Positions 15,528-37,491 of a DNA stretch of 64,000 nt are shown here, in pieces. Made by a program: the position numbers and the translations under genes. The first letter of the stretch is position 1. Each line of letters opens with the position of its first letter. The notes beneath the pieces are model-generated. The model saw nothing but the letters and a program-made list of their open reading frames with translations. It was not told the origin of the DNA and did no database searches. This stretch comes from a virus, in IMG/VR virus record IMGVR_UViG_3300032738_000111, positions 1-64,000 of that record, one strand, 5' to 3'.

Positions 15528-17627
15528 CTACACTACCGGCAATAATACACAACGACAGTTGATAATGTTCCCCGCGCTACCTTTCGGGTCGCCGGGATGG
15601 TCGAGTGCCTGCCCTGATACTATGAACGGCTTGTCTATCAATACCGCCTGCCCATTAGCAGCAACGTGGTTATACCTATCTCCCGGCTTGAGTCCGCGCA
15701 CCTTCTCATCAAGCGCGGTCAGCCACTCCTTCTTCTCTATGTCGTTCTGCCGATAGCCCTCGAGCGCACCCTTGTTGTTCGCCCCGACCGTCTCAGTCCG
15801 TGCTACCCGCTCGGCCTTATAGCGTTCGTACCCAGGCTCCATGTCGCGAATGCGGCTTGCCATTTCCGGTACGCCGACGCCTTCGTTGACCGCCTCCTGC
15901 AGCACCACGCGCAGGTCAGTGAACATAGTCTCTGGTAGCGTGGTAATCTTTAGCCGCTTCTCCCCAAGCCACTGCATTACCTCGGGTCTGCCTATGTCCC
16001 AAGCCCCGCCGCCGATGTCGGCCAAGGCACGCTGCCCACCTAGCTCCAGCCCCTCTTCAACGTGCGGCATGATCCCCGCTACCCAGCGCTCGGCCTGCTC
16101 ATCGGTGAATATCTCGCGCAGGATACTGTCCGGCGTCGGCACCGTAGCCTTGAGGTGCTTGTCGTCCTCCTCGGCAAGCGCGGCCAGTACTTCGTCCAGT
16201 GCCTCGATATAGAGCGCGGCCATCGTCTTGTGGAAGCGTTCCTCTAGCAGGCGCAGGCTATTGTCAAAAGCCCTCCAGTATTCGACATGCTGCGCGCTAC
16301 CAAACTCCCCGAACCTGCCCTTGTTCTCCGGCGGCGATTGCTTGATATGCCAGGGGGTTGCGGCAGCCTTAGGCGGTGTCGGCTCCTGCTGCGTTGCCTC
16401 CGGTTGCGGCACCGCACCTAGCGGCACCATGTTCATCGGCTGCCACAGCTTCTCGGCGTCGCCACCAAACGGTTCGCGGCCCGTCTCGGCACGGGCTTCA
16501 TCGGGGGTCAGATAAGGCACCCCTACCGCTGGCTGCAACCGTTCCGCCTGCTCATTCCTGCCCTCCTGCAAAGCCTCCACGTCAGAGAAGTCGGGCCTCA
16601 GCTCAAGGTCATTGCCATAACGCGGCACCAACTTCTCATTCAGCCTGCCGAAGGTGTACTTGACCTCAGGCACAATACAGGACTTCCAGTAAATCTCTTC
16701 TTCCTCGTCAGCGCTGGCATAGCTGGCGTTATCAAGGATACCAACGCGGATAGGCGGCACATGGAAGGCGGCGATGATTTCCTCGCGCGTCATCTTGGCT
16801 AGCTCGATGTACTGCCCGTCACGGGAGTTCTTGCCTAGCTCCTGGTATTTGAGATTCTTGCCAGCGATAAACGTCTTGCCCGCCGCTGCATCGCCGCCAT
16901 AAGTGGACTCCCACGCCGCCCGCATTTGCTCCAGCAGCTCTGGCTTTACCTCCCCTTCCGCTGAGAGCATCCCCGACGGGACTGCGCCGCGCTTGAGGAA
17001 CTCATAATTGAACTTGCGCACCCTGTTGTCCAGGTTGATGGACGTTTCAATGGGCTGCACTGCGGACTGCCCGTACAGGTCATTGAGGGGATTCCAGCGG
17101 CGGAAGTGGATTACCTGATGCGGGTCGTAAGGTATTTCGTTCCGCTTGTCGCCAGGCGTTGGGTTATAGACGTACCTCTGGATGGCTTCCTTAGTCGCGA
17201 CAATCCTCACGCGGTCAGGTCGCAGTGGGAAGATGGCGTCAACCCTGCTGCTTGGTGTAGCGCCGCCTACCAATAGCCAGTAGGAATCGCCAGCCAACCT
17301 GCGATAGCCGACCGTCGCCCACATCAATCCCGCCCAGTCATCATCTGCGTTGACGCGGGCAAGCAGGTCAAGCAGCGGGTGTTCCTCTACCGGCTCGCCC
17401 TTCCTGAAGAGGCCATACGGTACCGCCGCGCAGTCATTGCAGATGGCTTCGATGCAAGCAGCTACCCAGACATTGAGCTGGTAGGCCTGAAGGTAATTCT
17501 CTTGGTCTATGGCGGGGCCAGAGTCAGTGATTTTCCAGAGGCTGGCGGCGATAAAATCGGATAGGCTATCAGCAGCCTTAGCGGTGCCACCGAGGAATCG
17601 GCGCAGCCAGAACCAGTCGCGGGCCAT
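15528..17627 (-). CDS. Portal protein fused to MuF/gp7-type head morphogenesis protein
   Basis: 699 residues. Residues ~1-400 are an HK97-type portal (NYLQAYQLNVWVAACIEAICNDCAAVPYGL, the ASYASADEEEEIYWKSCIVPEV stretch, ELRPDFSDVEALQ). After a Pro/Gln-rich linker (~410-440) comes a MuF domain: RAFDNSLRLLEERFHKTMAAL, ...VARTETVGANNKGALEGY, TALDEKVRG, ending AGNIINCRCVLLPVV with the typical NCRC. The portal ring is the DNA gate and packaging-motor dock; MuF is thought to be packaged in the head. Encoded 9 bp after the large terminase gene. Confidence 0.92.
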   Translation of the reverse strand: MARDWFWLRRFLGGTAKAADSLSDFIAASLWKITDSGPAIDQENYLQAYQLNVWVAACIEAICNDCAAVPYGLFRKGEPVEEHPLLDLLARVNADDDWAGLMWATVGYRRLAGDSYWLLVGGATPSSRVDAIFPLRPDRVRIVATKEAIQRYVYNPTPGDKRNEIPYDPHQVIHFRRWNPLNDLYGQSAVQPIETSINLDNRVRKFNYEFLKRGAVPSGMLSAEGEVKPELLEQMRAAWESTYGGDAAAGKTFIAGKNLKYQELGKNSRDGQYIELAKMTREEIIAAFHVPPIRVGILDNASYASADEEEEIYWKSCIVPEVKYTFGRLNEKLVPRYGNDLELRPDFSDVEALQEGRNEQAERLQPAVGVPYLTPDEARAETGREPFGGDAEKLWQPMNMVPLGAVPQPEATQQEPTPPKAAATPWHIKQSPPENKGRFGEFGSAQHVEYWRAFDNSLRLLEERFHKTMAALYIEALDEVLAALAEEDDKHLKATVPTPDSILREIFTDEQAERWVAGIMPHVEEGLELGGQRALADIGGGAWDIGRPEVMQWLGEKRLKITTLPETMFTDLRVVLQEAVNEGVGVPEMASRIRDMEPGYERYKAERVARTETVGANNKGALEGYRQNDIEKKEWLTALDEKVRGLKPGDRYNHVAANGQAVLIDKPFIVSGQALDHPGDPKGSAGNIINCRCVLLPVV

Positions 17628-17636
17628 AGGGTAACC

Positions 17637-18989
17637 TCAGATTACGTCAAACCAAAGCTCAGTGAACTCGCCCTGTGCCAACTGTGCGAATGCGCCTGAC
17701 ATGGCATCCACCTGGTCGTCATGCGCGCCGAATGGAAATAGCGCCACCTCGTCAAGGAAGTCACTTATCCACGGCCCGCTCACCAGCTTGACATTGCCAT
17801 GCCACGCCTGGCTAGACACGGGATTGGCACGGACCTCTTTGCTACCAGTGCTGCGGACGCCGCAAAAGTTATACCCGTCGAGGATACGGCGGGTGTAGTG
17901 GTCTATCGTATTGACGCCACTACTGCCAGGCTCTTGCTCCATCGCAATTTCTACATCAACCCCATCGCGCTCAGCGGTCTGGCGGATAAGCGCTTCGACT
18001 TTGCCCGGCGCTGCTTGAGTACGTTTTACATCACAGATGTAGTAAGTCGCAGCATCGGTACGGTCTAGGTGACGCCCCATGAGTACGCCAGCAGTATAGT
18101 CAGGGTCCTTGCCGGGCTTGGGCTCCGTTGCCGCCAAGTCCCAGAAGCGTACTCGACGCATTTCCACAGGCGCGACATCCACTGGCGCAAACCAATCGCG
18201 CTGAAACTTGTTTCCTGTCGCCTCAATATCCCAGTCGCCCTTCTTCAACTGCTCGCGGGTAACAGGGTCAAGTTCGTCCAGCGCCTTGTTATACTCCTCA
18301 ACATCAAGGTGGGGGTTGTCCTCAAGGCAGGCTGGTATGAATACGCGCTCTTGGCTACGCCCCTCGACAATGAACCGTTGTTTTACCCATTGATGTCCTT
18401 GGTCGCCTGGGTTGCTTGCTGAGCGCATACGCAACGGTACTGCTGCGCCCTCAAGTCTCCGCAGGCGAGAGAATAGGTAGCGATATTGGCTCTCACTAAA
18501 CTGCGTCAATTCGTCGAAAGCAATATACTGGAAGGCCGCTGACTGATACCGAAACTTGTCCTTCTCGGCATCCAAGTAAGCAAAGCTCAAAGTAGCCCCC
18601 GAGGGGAATATCCAGGTCTTAGCCTTGTCGCTCCAGCGTGCGTCGGTTGGCCCCAGCCACTCCTGCGCCCTGTCCATCAGGGCCTCAGGCAGTATCAGGT
18701 CAGTATAGGTGCGCCGAAAGATGATGGCGGCATAGCTTGGAATATCAACGTACTGCAATGCGGCCATGAGTAAGGCGTCAGACTTGCCACCGCCTGCCGC
18801 GCCGCCGTAGAAAGCCTCGCGGCAAGTTAGCCAGAGGAATGCTTGCTGCTTAGGTGTCGGGGTGTGCGGGCAGTACTCACTCAGCCGCGGCGTCAGGTGC
18901 GCCTTCAGCTCCGGCCTCGACTGCACCAGATTCGACCAGTATTCGGAGGACTTCTCCAAGGTGTCCACTGCTTGTGTCGATGTTGCCAC
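17637..18989 (-). CDS. terL: Terminase large subunit
   Basis: Up to 450 residues. ATPase: Walker A FYGGAAGGGKSDALLMAAL, Walker B YIAFDELTQF, and the SNPGD coupling motif. Nuclease: FWDLAATEPK, the second acidic site MEQEPGSSG and HDDQVDAMSGAFAQL. It cuts and pumps DNA at the portal. The annotated GTG start (18987-18989) has no good ribosome-binding site and overlaps the small terminase by 113 nt. The true start may be further in, since homologues usually start close to the TPKQQAFL segment. Confidence 0.95.
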   Translation of the reverse strand: MATSTQAVDTLEKSSEYWSNLVQSRPELKAHLTPRLSEYCPHTPTPKQQAFLWLTCREAFYGGAAGGGKSDALLMAALQYVDIPSYAAIIFRRTYTDLILPEALMDRAQEWLGPTDARWSDKAKTWIFPSGATLSFAYLDAEKDKFRYQSAAFQYIAFDELTQFSESQYRYLFSRLRRLEGAAVPLRMRSASNPGDQGHQWVKQRFIVEGRSQERVFIPACLEDNPHLDVEEYNKALDELDPVTREQLKKGDWDIEATGNKFQRDWFAPVDVAPVEMRRVRFWDLAATEPKPGKDPDYTAGVLMGRHLDRTDAATYYICDVKRTQAAPGKVEALIRQTAERDGVDVEIAMEQEPGSSGVNTIDHYTRRILDGYNFCGVRSTGSKEVRANPVSSQAWHGNVKLVSGPWISDFLDEVALFPFGAHDDQVDAMSGAFAQLAQGEFTELWFDVI

Positions 18990-19365
18990 TGTGATTCACA
19001 TCCTGCTTGCTCTTCTCCGTGCTGATGTCAAACATGCCTGCTATCGCCTTGAGGCCCTCCTGCACCTTGCCGAGTGCGCCCACCTTGGCGTTGTCATTGT
19101 CCGCGCCAGCATAGATAGCCCACGCCGCTGAGATTGTTTCCTGATAGCCACTCAGGATCTCCGCGATTTCGTCGCCAGTCTCAATGCGCTCTTTGGTCTG
19201 CTCCCGTTGATGGTCAATGTACTTCTTCGTGGTCTTCCGATGGACGCCAATGGTGCGGGAGATTTCGCTGACATTACGGACACCTCGGCACCATAATTGC
19301 CACGCCTGCTTGCGAAGGCGGTCGCGCTCTTCGTCTGTCGGATTGTAGGTCTCTGGTTTACCCAT
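18877..19365 (-). CDS. terS: Terminase small subunit
   Basis: 162 residues. N-terminal HTH: RKQAWQLWCRGVRNVSEISRTIGVHRKTTKKYI, as in small terminases that bind the packaging site. Helical middle (YQETISAAWAIYAGADNDNAKVGALGKVQEGLKAIAGMF) and acidic Ala/Glu-rich tail that should contact the large subunit. A 6-bp hairpin (attggc/gccaat, 19367-19382) sits two bases before the ATG, between it and the purine-rich leader, which could control its translation. Confidence 0.85.
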   Translation of the reverse strand: MGKPETYNPTDEERDRLRKQAWQLWCRGVRNVSEISRTIGVHRKTTKKYIDHQREQTKERIETGDEIAEILSGYQETISAAWAIYAGADNDNAKVGALGKVQEGLKAIAGMFDISTEKSKQDVNHSGNIDTSSGHLGEVLRILVESGAVEAGAEGAPDAAAE

Positions 19366-19454: not shown

Positions 19455-19997
19455 TCAGTCGCGCCACTCATATTCGCACTGAGGGCATTTGTGGAGGCCT
19501 GAAACCTGTTCGCCTGCGGTTGCTTGTGTATCCGCGTCGTCTGATGGGAACGGCCCCGGTGTGGCTGCCTGTTCAAGCAGCGCGTTTAGCTCGGCCTCGT
19601 CGAAGCTGACTGGCAGGCACTCATCCTCCTGCAACTTCACAAGTAGACCCGCAAGGACAGCATCATCATCCTCTGCGAAGTTGCTCAGGTTGTTATCATC
19701 AATCAGATACGCGGCGGCCTCAATATCCGAGCAATCCCACACGTCGCAGCGAACCGTCTCCCAACCTATGCGTTGCGCAGACTGGACTACCGCGTGGTGT
19801 GCGATAATCCGCATGGTGCTGGCCTGCACGACCACTGCGGAGCGTTGCCCATAGCGCAGGAGACTTTCGTCAAGCCGGAGGAGTTGGGATTCGGGATGAT
19901 TGCGATAGTTCTGCGGCCACGGTTTCAAGTCTGCTATCGCTACATCGCGAATCTCACCCCGTGGCTTATGCTTGTCAAAGGTCAGTTTCTTCGCCAT
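19455..19997 (-). CDS. ParB/sulfiredoxin-like nuclease-domain protein with C-terminal zinc knuckle
   Basis: 180 residues from ATG 19995-19997. The ParB-like fold is clear: RDVAIADLKPWPQNYRNHPESQLLRLDESLLRYGQRSAVVVQ, then the IIAHHAVVQSAQRIGWETVRCDVWDCSD region (GxxR-type loop replaced by AHHA) and AYLIDDNNLSNFAE. The C-terminus ends LHKCPQCEYEW, half a zinc ribbon. Phage members often sit just before terminase genes, as here, and some are fused to methyltransferases. It may nick or mark DNA before packaging; this is inference. Confidence 0.8.
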   Translation of the reverse strand: MAKKLTFDKHKPRGEIRDVAIADLKPWPQNYRNHPESQLLRLDESLLRYGQRSAVVVQASTMRIIAHHAVVQSAQRIGWETVRCDVWDCSDIEAAAYLIDDNNLSNFAEDDDAVLAGLLVKLQEDECLPVSFDEAELNALLEQAATPGPFPSDDADTQATAGEQVSGLHKCPQCEYEWRD

Positions 19998-20018
19998 TGA
20001 ACATTCTCTCGTTGCCAA

Positions 20019-20380: not shown

Positions 20381-20455
20381 TGGTGAGGGCAATTGGATTT
20401 GAACCAATGACCGGCCGCTTATGAGGCGGCTGCTCTTCCGCTAAGCTATGCCCTC
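20381..20455 (-). tRNA. tRNA with CAU anticodon (Met or Ile2)
   Basis: A complete cloverleaf on the minus strand: acceptor GAGGGCA/TGCCCTC, D arm GC..GC with AGCGGAAGA loop, anticodon arm GCCGC-CTCATAA-GCGGC (anticodon CAT at 20423-20421), short variable loop, T arm ATTGG-TTCAAAT-CCAAT, discriminator A and encoded CCA. Not an initiator, since it lacks the three G-C pairs of the anticodon stem. Whether it is Met or lysidine-modified Ile cannot be told from sequence alone. Confidence 0.92.
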
Positions 20456-20466
20456 GTATGGATGAT

Positions 20467-20520
20467 TGGTCTGGGCGGTATGTTCCTAAGACATACGCTC
20501 ATCTATTGAGCTACGCCCAG
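20467..20520 (-). tRNA. T-armless tRNA-like element, UAG anticodon loop
   Basis: 54 nt on the minus strand: acceptor CTGGGCG/CGCCCAG (7 bp), TA, D arm GCTC-AATAGAT-GAGC, G, anticodon arm TATGT-CTTAGGA-ACATA, C, then the acceptor 3' strand, A and CCA. Variable loop and T arm are absent and the D loop lacks the usual GG. The loop offers UAG (reads CUA, Leu). The stem extends 3 bp further with flanking bases (GGTCTGGGCG/CGCCCAGACC). It is a relic, a very unusual minimal tRNA, or a tRNA mimic. Confidence 0.5.
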
Positions 20521-20700
20521 ACCATGAATGCGCAGAAGGCCCGGCGCAAGCCAGACCCTCGCTTTCCCTTAGCCGAAGCACCGGGGTAGTTATTGCACGT
20601 CTGCGTTCGCCGCCCTGGATTGGTTACCTGGACGGGGAACGATCTCCTCCTACGCATGGCAGGGGAGGCAATGGAAATGATTCTCCTCAAAACACATAGT
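20521..20700 (-). other. Gene-free transcribed leader of the tRNA cluster
   Basis: Between the promoter at 20701-20730 and the tRNA-like element. A stem CCCGGTGC/GCGCCGGG (about 20548-20588, one G-U) encloses a small GC-TTCG-GC hairpin. No ORF above background. Probably tRNA leader or another small RNA. Confidence 0.35.
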
Positions 20701-20807: not shown

Positions 20808-21077
20808 CTAATTCTCTGCAAGTAACGGCTGGTGGCGTTGGCGGGCCTCTCGGCGTAACCAATCCCGCATTTCGTTCCGGGCGATAACTCGGCAAAGAGC
20901 AAGCGGCTTCCGCGCCCGTGCTATCTGTTCACTCCTAGCAAACACTTTCACCCGCGCCTCCTGGAGCAAGTCCTCCAAGTCCTCGGGCTGATACTCTTCG
21001 GCAATAGCGCGGCAGGCCTCTTCGGCGATGACTTTCTCATATTCCACTGGCAATTCCTTCCGCGCTTTCTCCTTCAT
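20808..21077 (-). CDS. Sigma-70 region 2-like protein
   Basis: Up to 89 residues. The core EDLEDLLQEARVKVFARSEQIARARKPLALCRVIARNEMRDWLRREARQR matches region 2 of ECF-type sigma factors (core-RNAP binding and -10 recognition). No region 4 is present. ATG 21075-21077 has no ribosome-binding site; the internal GTG with AAGGA 7 nt before it (residue 11) is a good alternative. It overlaps the region-4-like gene by 41 nt. Together they look like a sigma factor split in two. Confidence 0.65.
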   Translation of the reverse strand: MKEKARKELPVEYEKVIAEEACRAIAEEYQPEDLEDLLQEARVKVFARSEQIARARKPLALCRVIARNEMRDWLRREARQRHQPLLAEN

Positions 21078-21498
21078 CCGAAAGGATGACGAGCGCAGAG
21101 GCCATCTTTATGCACGCGCGGGATAAAATTCTGGAAATGGTTGACTGGTTCACCCGCAACATTCTCCCCACCTGCTCCTGGATAACCTTCTCACGATAGC
21201 ACAGAAGGATAACTATCTGCCACTTTGTGGGTAGTGCGCCAATGGCTTTGTCGAGGTCAGCTTTGATACAAACCAATTCTACATAGGCCGCCTCTCCGCT
21301 TACGCCACCGCTAGATAAACCGCTATCATCAGATACGTCGAGCGTGCAGCCTAGATAACATGCCTCGGCGAGTTCTGAGTACCGATGCAACCAACCACGC
21401 ACCCTTCGCTCCGCACAAGCCTGAGGGTCAAACAGGTCTCTCATCGGAAACGGGCGGCTCCAGTAGTCGTCGGAAGTTTCCACGGTGTCTCCCGTCAC
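21037..21498 (-). CDS. Sigma-70 region 4-like HTH protein
   Basis: 153 residues from GTG, in a GTGA overlap with the upstream gene. The C-terminal half DLDKAIGALPTKWQIVILLCYREKVIQEQVGRMLRVNQSTISRILSRACIKM has the sigma region 4 pattern (ALP..., IxEQVGxxLxVNQSTISRxLSRA) that binds the -35 element; ArpU-like late regulators are an alternative. The N-terminal ~80 residues are of no known family (RVRGWLHRYSELAEACYLGC). Region 2 is missing and is encoded by the next, overlapping gene. Confidence 0.65.
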   Translation of the reverse strand: MTGDTVETSDDYWSRPFPMRDLFDPQACAERRVRGWLHRYSELAEACYLGCTLDVSDDSGLSSGGVSGEAAYVELVCIKADLDKAIGALPTKWQIVILLCYREKVIQEQVGRMLRVNQSTISRILSRACIKMASALVILSDEGESAEGIASGI

Positions 21499-35384: not shown

Positions 35385-36698
35385 TCAATCCCCTTTCAGT
35401 GTTGCGCGACAGGATGTAAACAATTCCGATGACTGAGAAGCTAGTGTCTCCCCTTGCGTTTGAGGTTCCTGCTTCATCAGACCTAACAACTGTATCGGCC
35501 CTCCACAGGCTTCGGATTCGGCGGGACACCCGCCTATCTGTTGCAAACCTCTGTTCAATATGTTTCGAGCCGCGTTTACGTCACGGCCAATGCTTAGTCC
35601 GCACTCAGGACAGTCATGGACTCTGTCCCACAGGCGCTTCGGTACAATCGCCCAGCACTGCGAACAGGCCTGGGTAGTCCCTCGCGCAGGCACTCTCACT
35701 AACTGCGCACCTAGTTCTTCGCACTTATACTCAAGCATCTCGACGAGCTTGCTCCAGCCCGCGTCGGCAATGCTCTTGTGCAGGCCCTTCTCCCGTTGCC
35801 CTCCGCCAGCTTCCTTCTGCAATAGGTCGCCAGCTATTCTGTCCTCTACGGCTATCAGGTCATACTGCTCGACGAGTTGACGGGACAGCGTGTGCAGAAA
35901 GGCCTCCCGCGCATTCGCCACATCATGCTCGGCACGTGCTACTTTCAGCGCCGCCTTTTTCCGGTTTGCCGAACCCTTCTTTGCCCTTGCCAGCCGACGC
36001 GCCAGTTTCGTCCGCTTCTTCTGCGCATTCCGATAGTATTGCGGTGGCTTCACTTCTTCGCCTTCCGAGGTGGTAATCAACGACGAGCAGCCTACGTCGA
36101 TGCCAATACAACGCAACGGCTCCACTATGGGCGGTGCCGGTATCCCGTTGTCGCCTGCCAAGGCAACATACCATTTCCCGGCAACGCGCCGGACAGAGAG
36201 GGCCTTCACGTCGAGGTTGGGCGGCACTTTTGGACGGGCGTTGATCAAGCCAATTTTAGGCACATTGACCTTGCCGTCGCGCCACTGCTCCACATCGCCC
36301 GCGTCGCGCGATATGAGATTCGGGGTATCGCGCTTTGGCCTTGGATACCCAGGCCGCTCGCCGTTCTTACAGCGCCGGAAGAATGCCTGGAAAGCAACGT
36401 CGAGGTTCTTCAGTACGCCTCGCGCAAAGACACTCGGCACAGCCCTCAATTCAGGATATTGTTTGCGGGACTTCGCTAACTGTGCGCATTGATCAATGTA
36501 GGATATTGACCACTTCTTCTTGATGGCGGAGGCGTCTTCATTTGGCTTCTCATCCAACTCCCGCTTGCAACCCTCCCACGCCTGCTCGCGGTCAAGCAGT
36601 GAGTAGTTCCAGAGGCGGCGGCAGATTTCCATCCATGCCAACAACTGAGCTTCCTGCGCCTTCGTCGGATATAGGCGATACTTCTGGGCGCGTATCAT
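35385..36698 (-). CDS. tnpB: TnpB (IS200/IS605-type RNA-guided nuclease), standalone
   Basis: 437 residues from ATG 36696-36698. N-terminal IRAQKYRLYPTKAQEAQL with helical wedge region, then RuvC-I CIGIDVGCSS, RuvC-II LIAVEDRIAG, zinc ribbon ACSQCWAIVPKRLWDRVHDCPECG, RuvC-III IGRDVNAARNIL. All catalytic acids are present. The C-terminal tail with ACGGP...MKQEP is typical of IS605 members. No TnpA lies near. Promoter 36829-36857 gives a 130-nt leader. In known systems the guide RNA is made from the 3' end of tnpB, here around 35300-35500. Confidence 0.92.
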   Translation of the reverse strand: MIRAQKYRLYPTKAQEAQLLAWMEICRRLWNYSLLDREQAWEGCKRELDEKPNEDASAIKKKWSISYIDQCAQLAKSRKQYPELRAVPSVFARGVLKNLDVAFQAFFRRCKNGERPGYPRPKRDTPNLISRDAGDVEQWRDGKVNVPKIGLINARPKVPPNLDVKALSVRRVAGKWYVALAGDNGIPAPPIVEPLRCIGIDVGCSSLITTSEGEEVKPPQYYRNAQKKRTKLARRLARAKKGSANRKKAALKVARAEHDVANAREAFLHTLSRQLVEQYDLIAVEDRIAGDLLQKEAGGGQREKGLHKSIADAGWSKLVEMLEYKCEELGAQLVRVPARGTTQACSQCWAIVPKRLWDRVHDCPECGLSIGRDVNAARNILNRGLQQIGGCPAESEACGGPIQLLGLMKQEPQTQGETLASQSSELFTSCRATLKGD

Positions 36699-36828
36699 CA
36701 CAAGCTCCAGAATCAGATAGCCCGCCCACTTTCGATTGCGCTTCGTCCGCAGAGACGCAGTGCCTTCGATAGATGGACGGGCTATAATGAGTCGCACAAA
36801 AAGCACTGCTGACTCTGCGGATACTCTG

Positions 36829-36857
36829 ATTATAGAGGTTGCTGGCACTGGAGTCAA
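36829..36857 (-). promoter_or_regulatory. Strong sigma-70-like promoter TTGACT-17-TATAAT
   Basis: Minus-strand TTGACT at 36857-36852, 17-nt spacer, perfect TATAAT at 36834-36829. It lies directly after the stop of the 36865 gene and drives tnpB and probably the small genes after it. It is the best promoter match in the window. Confidence 0.75.
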
Positions 36858-36864
36858 GGCCTTT

Positions 36865-37491
36865 CTACGGGAGTTTGTTCTGGCGGTATGCTTCTTCGAT
36901 GACTTGCTCGTGCCGTGAATGCGCTTGCCATATCCGACCGTGCTTCTGCGTCCGGTGCATGTATCCAATGGAGCGGCCTGGCAGCCAGTCGTGATAGCGG
37001 CGAGGGTAAAACACCCTCTTCGCTACAGCGTATCCGCGCAAGCCCCACTCGTAGTAACCATGCCACTCTTTGCAGTGAGCGCGAATGTTCGCCTTCGGGT
37101 CTGTGCTGCCACCTGGACGATCCGTAGGCCCCGCGCATCCATTCGTCGCCCTGTAGTGACATCGCAGGCCGATACCTGCCGCGCAATACGCCAATCCCAT
37201 TTGCCAGTCTGCGCCCATGCCGAGTCGCTCGTATTCACTCACAAAGAATTCGCAGAATGGCAGAAATCCGCTGCTTGGATAAAGTTCCCGTACAATCAGC
37301 CGACACTTAGCGACGCGCAACGCATGGACTGAGACCATCGGCCCCGCCTCGCTCACCCTCTGCGCCCTCGGCTCCGGCATGGCGGGTAGTTCCTGCGGCT
37401 CCGCCTGCGTGTGCAGGCATACAAGCCAGACTATTGCGGCGGCGACGAGGACCCAGAACAAGCCTCTGTACGGGTTGCGGTCAGGTATCAT
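36865..37491 (-). CDS. Membrane-anchored protein, possibly lysozyme-like
   Basis: 208 residues from ATG 37489-37491, GGAGGAGG upstream. N-terminal anchor (GLFWVLVAAAIVWLVCLH), then an exported domain with Cys pairs (VAKCRLIVRELYPSSGFLPFCEFFVSEYERLGMGADWQMGLAYCAAGIGLRCHYRATNGCAGPTD...). The helical layout with E and a GxG-rich central part recalls lytic transglycosylases, but I cannot place the catalytic Glu. Could act on the host envelope. Confidence 0.5.
   Translation of the reverse strand: MIPDRNPYRGLFWVLVAAAIVWLVCLHTQAEPQELPAMPEPRAQRVSEAGPMVSVHALRVAKCRLIVRELYPSSGFLPFCEFFVSEYERLGMGADWQMGLAYCAAGIGLRCHYRATNGCAGPTDRPGGSTDPKANIRAHCKEWHGYYEWGLRGYAVAKRVFYPRRYHDWLPGRSIGYMHRTQKHGRIWQAHSRHEQVIEEAYRQNKLP

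Follow-up and report, generated by a model that had tools for sequence, protein, structure and literature searches.

A putative two-subunit ECF-like sigma factor encoded by overlapping genes of a phage

Introduction

In sigma factors of the ECF type, region 2 binds the clamp helices of RNA polymerase and recognizes the -10 element. Region 4 binds the flap tip and recognizes the -35 element, and the linker between the two regions runs through the RNA exit channel. Only a few two-piece sigma factors are known, and in these the region-2 partner is short and has diverged strongly. The virus record IMGVR_UViG_3300032738_000111 of IMG/VR contains two overlapping genes with sigma-like products, which raises the question of whether a phage can divide a sigma factor between two proteins and, if so, what such a pair would do. 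The window, meaning the whole stretch of DNA that was analysed, comprises positions 1 to 64,000 of this 78,240-base record, and a reading made from its sequence alone had already pointed to this locus.

The gene pair and its overlap

Both open reading frames that the sequence-only reading had marked out are present on the minus strand and share the 41 nt that it had given for them (21037..21077). The gene for the region-4 subunit (21037..21498) encodes 153 aa from a GTG start, and the gene for the region-2 subunit (20808..21077) encodes 89 aa from an ATG at 21077 or 79 aa from a GTG at 21047, so that region 4 precedes region 2 in the direction of transcription. The ATG is not preceded by a Shine-Dalgarno sequence; the GTG has GGAAGGA seven bases upstream, would reduce the overlap to 11 nt and may be the better start of the gene. 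As the genes overlap, coupled translation and near-equal amounts of the two subunits are suggested, and the coupling is probable. The region-2 gene has good codon scores, typical of the phage, whereas those of the region-4 gene are weak.

Two trivial origins of the arrangement were considered and set aside. A programmed +1 frameshift joining the two frames is unlikely, as the overlap ends in ATA TGA and contains no known slippery codon. A frameshift or assembly error in a normal sigma gene was rejected on two grounds: a second IMG/VR contig of 38.7 kb has the same arrangement with an identical locus, within a 20-kb stretch of 100% identity which makes such an error unlikely, and a frameshifted normal gene would show the order 2-4 and not 4-2.

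Genomic setting

The pair and its neighbouring genes are all on the minus strand. Upstream lie a methylase gene, a DUF4406/deoxyribosyltransferase-like gene, a gene that resembles phosphoesterases as far as can be read from its sequence, and a second methylase gene. Downstream, a tRNA-Met with the anticodon CAU (20381..20455, minus; ARAGORN and Rfam, 69.4 bits) separates the pair from the packaging genes. It is followed on the same strand by genes for a ParB-like protein (19455..20018; phrog_620, 1.4e-28), a probable small terminase subunit (18877..19365; Terminase_5, 14.1 bits, which is below the cut-off, and placed ahead of the large subunit), the large terminase subunit (17637..18989; 50% identical to the annotated large terminase of Methanobacterium phage psiM2) and a portal protein with a Mu-F-like domain, a portal-MuF fusion (15528..17627; Phage_portal 3.4e-62, Phage_Mu_F 6.5e-11). 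The earlier view that the pair stands beside phage late genes is thus borne out by the terminase and portal genes downstream. The locus marks the border between early and late genes, with methylase and nucleotide-metabolism genes before it and packaging and structural genes after it, and it is at the border between early and packaging or structural genes that phages usually keep their late regulators. The large terminase and portal genes are the presumed target operon of the putative split sigma factor. A motif search for a promoter-like motif common to the intergenic regions gave no excess over shuffled sequences.

Several other features of the record were noted. Directly adjoining the tRNA-Met, at about 20472-20524 on the minus strand, is a tRNA-like structure which has no T arm and is called by neither ARAGORN nor Rfam. 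It consists of a 7-bp acceptor stem (CUGGGCG/CGCCCAG), a D arm and then an anticodon arm with the loop CUUAGGA (anticodon UAG), followed by an A and an encoded CCA, and folds with -32.4 kcal/mol (z -6.7). Within the early region, a TnpB-like protein of 527 aa (35385-36968, minus) carries Cas12f1-like TNB, OrfB_IS605 and HTH_OrfB domains. A prepilin-like DUF1559 protein with an N-terminal methylation motif is encoded at 1721-2437 on the minus strand; proteins of this kind occur in planctomycetes and Armatimonadota, which makes it a possible pointer to the host. Beyond the window, at 68264-69118 and 69208-70062 of the record, two tandem genes of 284 aa with nearly identical beginnings are apparently copies of a duplicated structural gene.

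Domain content of the two proteins

In the 153-aa protein, Sigma70_r4 is the sole Pfam domain (6.4e-7, 29.2 bits against a cut-off of 24.1, residues 85-131), and Pfam finds no region 2. Regions 4.1-4.2 lie at aa 79-136, while the first 78 residues match no family. The ECF models of NCBIfam cover the protein only with their region-4 part, TIGR02937 for instance with model positions 107-164 at 33.3 bits. The AlphaFold model, made like that of the partner from the single sequence, has a pLDDT of 41.6, too low for use.

The 89-aa protein is the converse case. Its sole Pfam domain is Sigma70_r2 (3.1e-7, 30.5 bits against a cut-off of 24), matched by residues 31-79 over profile positions 20-70 of 71, with nothing of region 4, and the NCBIfam ECF models cover it only with their region-2 part. 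The best of them is TIGR02989, the Rhodopirellula/Verrucomicrobium ECF subfamily, with a partial match of 35.7 bits; in TIGR02937 positions 11-77 are covered. Complete ECF sigma factors of planctomycetes are 31-44% identical to the protein over about 50-65 residues spanning regions 2.1-2.4, and D36, Q39 and N68 are invariant in a 12-sequence alignment with complete ECF factors. At the aromatic position of region 2.3, where WL-IARN is usual, the phage protein reads LC-VIARN.

The structure prediction is consistent with this assignment. The AlphaFold model (no templates; pLDDT 68.5, core 80-85) has helices at 11-26, 31-47, 49-54 and 58-81, which correspond to the four that make up ECF region 2. 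In a Foldseek search of the PDB with this model, sigma factors, almost exclusively of the ECF type, fill roughly the top 20 places. The best matches are to region 2 of SigH, RpoE, SigL and sigma-E, several of them in transcription complexes, and most of the top ten have probabilities of 0.9-0.98. Owing to the small size of the protein the E-values are only around 0.5, which means that the evidence lies in the consistency of the match list and not in any single E-value. The protein has no linker, and its C-terminal end follows region 2.4 by no more than about ten residues. Judged by alignment and predicted fold, the 89-aa protein is a complete ECF-type region 2 in which 2.1-2.4 are all present.

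These results uphold the original assignment of region 4 alone to the one product and of region 2 alone to the other. Of the two outcomes named beforehand as contrary to it, neither was found: the 20808-21077 product does match a sigma profile, and the match of the 21037-21498 product is not confined to HTH families of the ArpU or terminase type, with the ArpU model TIGR01637 reaching 18.5 bits, far under its curated cut-off of 43.1. Over all 78,240 bases of the record, the two sigma domains occur once each above cut-off, in adjacent overlapping genes, and a search with sigma profiles detected no complete sigma factor. Two lone sigma domains in adjacent overlapping genes are not expected by chance, and the finding that regions 2 and 4 are divided between two proteins is regarded as secure.

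The region-4 protein could still be a late activator that resembles ArpU or RinA and uses the host sigma factor, with the region-2 protein as a separate polymerase-binding protein. Regulators of this type share with it a sigma-like HTH and a gene just before the terminase, the position ahead of the packaging genes being typical of them, and its HTH is matched not only by the ArpU model but also by phrog_36, 'transcriptional regulator', with 19 bits. Sigma70_r4 and the ECF models, however, score much higher, the former over its cut-off, whereas the ArpU match falls far short. Nor would it account for the full sigma region 2 that the overlapping gene encodes, and we know of no region-2 partner of an ArpU/RinA-type regulator. 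This alternative to a two-subunit sigma factor is unlikely.

Comparison with known divided systems

A division of labour in late initiation has been described in phage T4, where gp55 with its region-2 homology domain acts together with gp33, which clamps the flap tip and is structurally not related to region 4; basal late transcription is possible with gp55, whereas the sliding clamp gp45 is required for full activity (PMC7892883). In the present phage, as in T4, late initiation would be divided between a region-2 protein on the clamp and a protein on the flap. By this analogy, the 89-aa protein might act alone as a gp55-like sigma factor that needs only a -10 element, with the 153-aa protein as a gp33-like co-activator on the flap and not as a reader of the -35 element. 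The 153-aa protein, however, has a Sigma70_r4 domain with a complete 4.1-4.2 HTH, which is not the fold of gp33, and the 89-aa protein is too small for the extra helix-loop-helix of gp55, which also has a clamp-binding tail. Neither phage protein gave a sequence match to gp55 or gp33 in the PDB at E up to 10. A gp55/gp33-like arrangement is therefore rather improbable, and a two-subunit sigma factor with a true region 4 is the reading pursued here.

A closer counterpart is found in Bacillus subtilis, in which SigO (region 4) and RsoA (region 2) jointly activate transcription and are encoded by the operon yvrI-yvrHa with region 4 first (PMC8103513); their masses are tabulated as 22.5 and 9.0 kDa (PMC10141391). 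As in the phage, regions 4 and 2 reside on separate proteins which are encoded together, the region-4 gene comes first and the region-2 subunit is of similar size. The Bacillus pair, in contrast to that of the phage, is a chromosomal acid-stress regulator, and its region-2 subunit is of a different kind. RsoA is of the diverged HTH_16 type (PF12645), the family to which Tn916 Orf8 also belongs; B. subtilis is matched by PF12645. The phage region-2 protein has no match to PF12645 at E up to 1, and hhalign gave a probability of 1.1% against eight HTH_16 proteins, which stood for the RsoA family, and of 1.3% against the HTH_16 profile. The comparison with SigO and RsoA drawn in the sequence-only reading consequently holds for the architecture but not for the sequence.

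A total of 249 Bacillota genomes were probed with PF12645, the B. subtilis control being matched. Matches occurred in 142 of the 249, and the best are free-standing proteins with an open frame of 68-106 aa. At seven of the first 11 strong loci (L190-L193, L195, L199 and L200) an ORF of the region-4 type, 143-196 aa long, lies directly upstream and overlaps the HTH_16 gene by 4-20 nt; at an eighth, L198, the ORF is 4 nt upstream, and at L220, an element from the human gut, the overlap is 1 nt. Four upstream proteins were scanned, and three exceed a region-4 cut-off, their domain lying at about residues 80-135; the fourth, encoded 77 nt upstream at L202, is just under it with 23.4 bits. These loci are referred to here as Tn916 Orf7/Orf8-like. 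A search with phrog_1340 over 299 Bacillota genomes gave no match, with no control matched either.

The likeness of these loci to the phage pair extends to a region-4 protein of mostly 133-165 aa with its domain at about aa 80-135, encoded directly upstream of an overlapping or abutting gene for a partner of about 62-97 aa. In hhalign, the 153-aa protein aligns with Orf7-like proteins (probability 95.5%) in the HTH only, columns 82-147; the N-terminal parts give no alignment, and there is no full-length homology. The partners differ: HTH_16 proteins represent the front part of region 2 only and, to judge by the alignment, stop soon after region 2.2, whereas the phage protein continues through 2.4. 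The phage pair is best described as the same kind of system, lying outside the HTH_16 sequence family. The order 4-2, earlier described as reversed, is confirmed, but it is not peculiar to the phage since it is also found in yvrI-yvrHa and in the Tn916 Orf7/Orf8-like pairs. As a separate matter, region-4-then-HTH_16 pairs recur in Bacillota elements, and it seems worthwhile to survey how many there are and what they target.

Distribution of the pair

Besides the two contigs already mentioned, a third, short one from another sample encodes a portal protein that is 100% identical wherever it is matched. With three contigs the virus is real, and all three belong to one population, so they provide no independent test of selection. 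IMG/VR scans with the single proteins and with a small region-2 alignment returned only the same population, and scans by way of the terminase, ParB-like, portal and phosphoesterase-like neighbours returned it again or found relatives that have no such pair or end before the locus. The relatives include two phages, L085 and L222, with a portal protein at 79%. No second lineage carrying the pair, which co-conservation would require, was found in the collections searched. Across other viral records, Sigma70_r2 picked out five sigma-like proteins, all of them complete and none split, and weak tblastn matches in phages were complete sigma factors or antisense.

In the closest relative on a long contig, judged by its terminase (62%), region 2 finds no match, which shows that the split sigma factor is not general to the phage group; the gene upstream of its terminase resembles regulators of the Q/RinA type, below significance. 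Four more distant relatives in IMG/VR (L086-L089, terminase about 42%) each encode a complete sigma-like protein, 257-267 aa in length, and another relative encodes an ECF-sized one of 186 aa. In the four proteins of 257-267 aa region 2 is strong, while no match to region 4 exceeds the cut-off. Related phages thus seem to use different devices.

A model for the phage pair

Two readings would deny the pair any role in initiation. Sigma-like domains without initiation function do exist, as in the N-terminal domain of PhyR (PMC8103513), and the two fragments might be a decoy or anti-host device that occupies clamp and flap and shuts off host transcription; the intact appearance of regions 2.2-2.4, including the invariant ECF residues D, Q and N, and the position beside the late genes speak against this, and it is very improbable. 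That the genes are functionless, degenerating remnants of a broken and rearranged ECF gene is harder still to credit, for although they come from one population only and the codon signal of the region-4 gene is weak, both frames are open, both domains are intact, the region-2 gene has a codon signal typical of the phage, and a 2-4 gene that simply decayed could not yield the order 4-2.

On balance, the two domains, the position of the genes, the single occurrence of each sigma region in the record and the Bacillus and T4 precedents make it likely that the phage pair is an ECF-like sigma factor in two subunits. Points against this are the restriction to one population in the collections searched, the closest relative without a region-2 match, the weak codon signal of the region-4 gene and the low-confidence fold model of its product, the departure from the usual region-2.3 motif and the negative motif search. 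The chances that it serves the late genes appear about evenly balanced, and such a role is plausible. For complex formation, promoter choice and timing of the pair we infer the following course. The overlapping genes would be translated in a coupled way. The region-2 subunit would bind the beta-prime clamp helices of the host RNA polymerase via region 2.2 and would melt and read the -10 element via 2.3-2.4, while the 153-aa subunit would place region 4.1 on the beta-flap tip and region 4.2 on the -35 element. Its N-terminal extension of 78 residues, the only place for a linker given that the 89-aa protein has none, may replace the missing linker or fill the channel, or may contact the region-2 subunit. 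The pair would assemble on the core polymerase, where its two polymerase contacts together with the promoter would keep it in place, and would switch transcription to the late genes, starting with terminase, portal and capsid; the target promoters presumably precede the terminase operon.

Both phage domains are ECF-like in sequence (group IV; TIGR02989, TIGR02937), and the difference from an ECF sigma factor is that the latter is one polypeptide in the order 2-4, whereas the phage has two proteins in the order 4-2. Tentatively, and with more doubt than confidence, the pair may be a late-gene switch with an origin separate from that of the HTH_16-type pairs: an ECF sigma factor would have been split, and its parts reordered, outside the Bacillota.

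Significance

Split sigma factors are known from Bacillus; one from a phage whose region 2 is complete and of the ECF type appears to be new. Region 4 before region 2, in overlapping or abutting genes that recur in mobile elements, is a testable regularity. If the proposed reading is true, the linker between regions 2 and 4 would be dispensable in an ordinary ECF sigma factor, and the phage pair would offer both a very small system for probing linker function and a compact promoter switch with two inputs.
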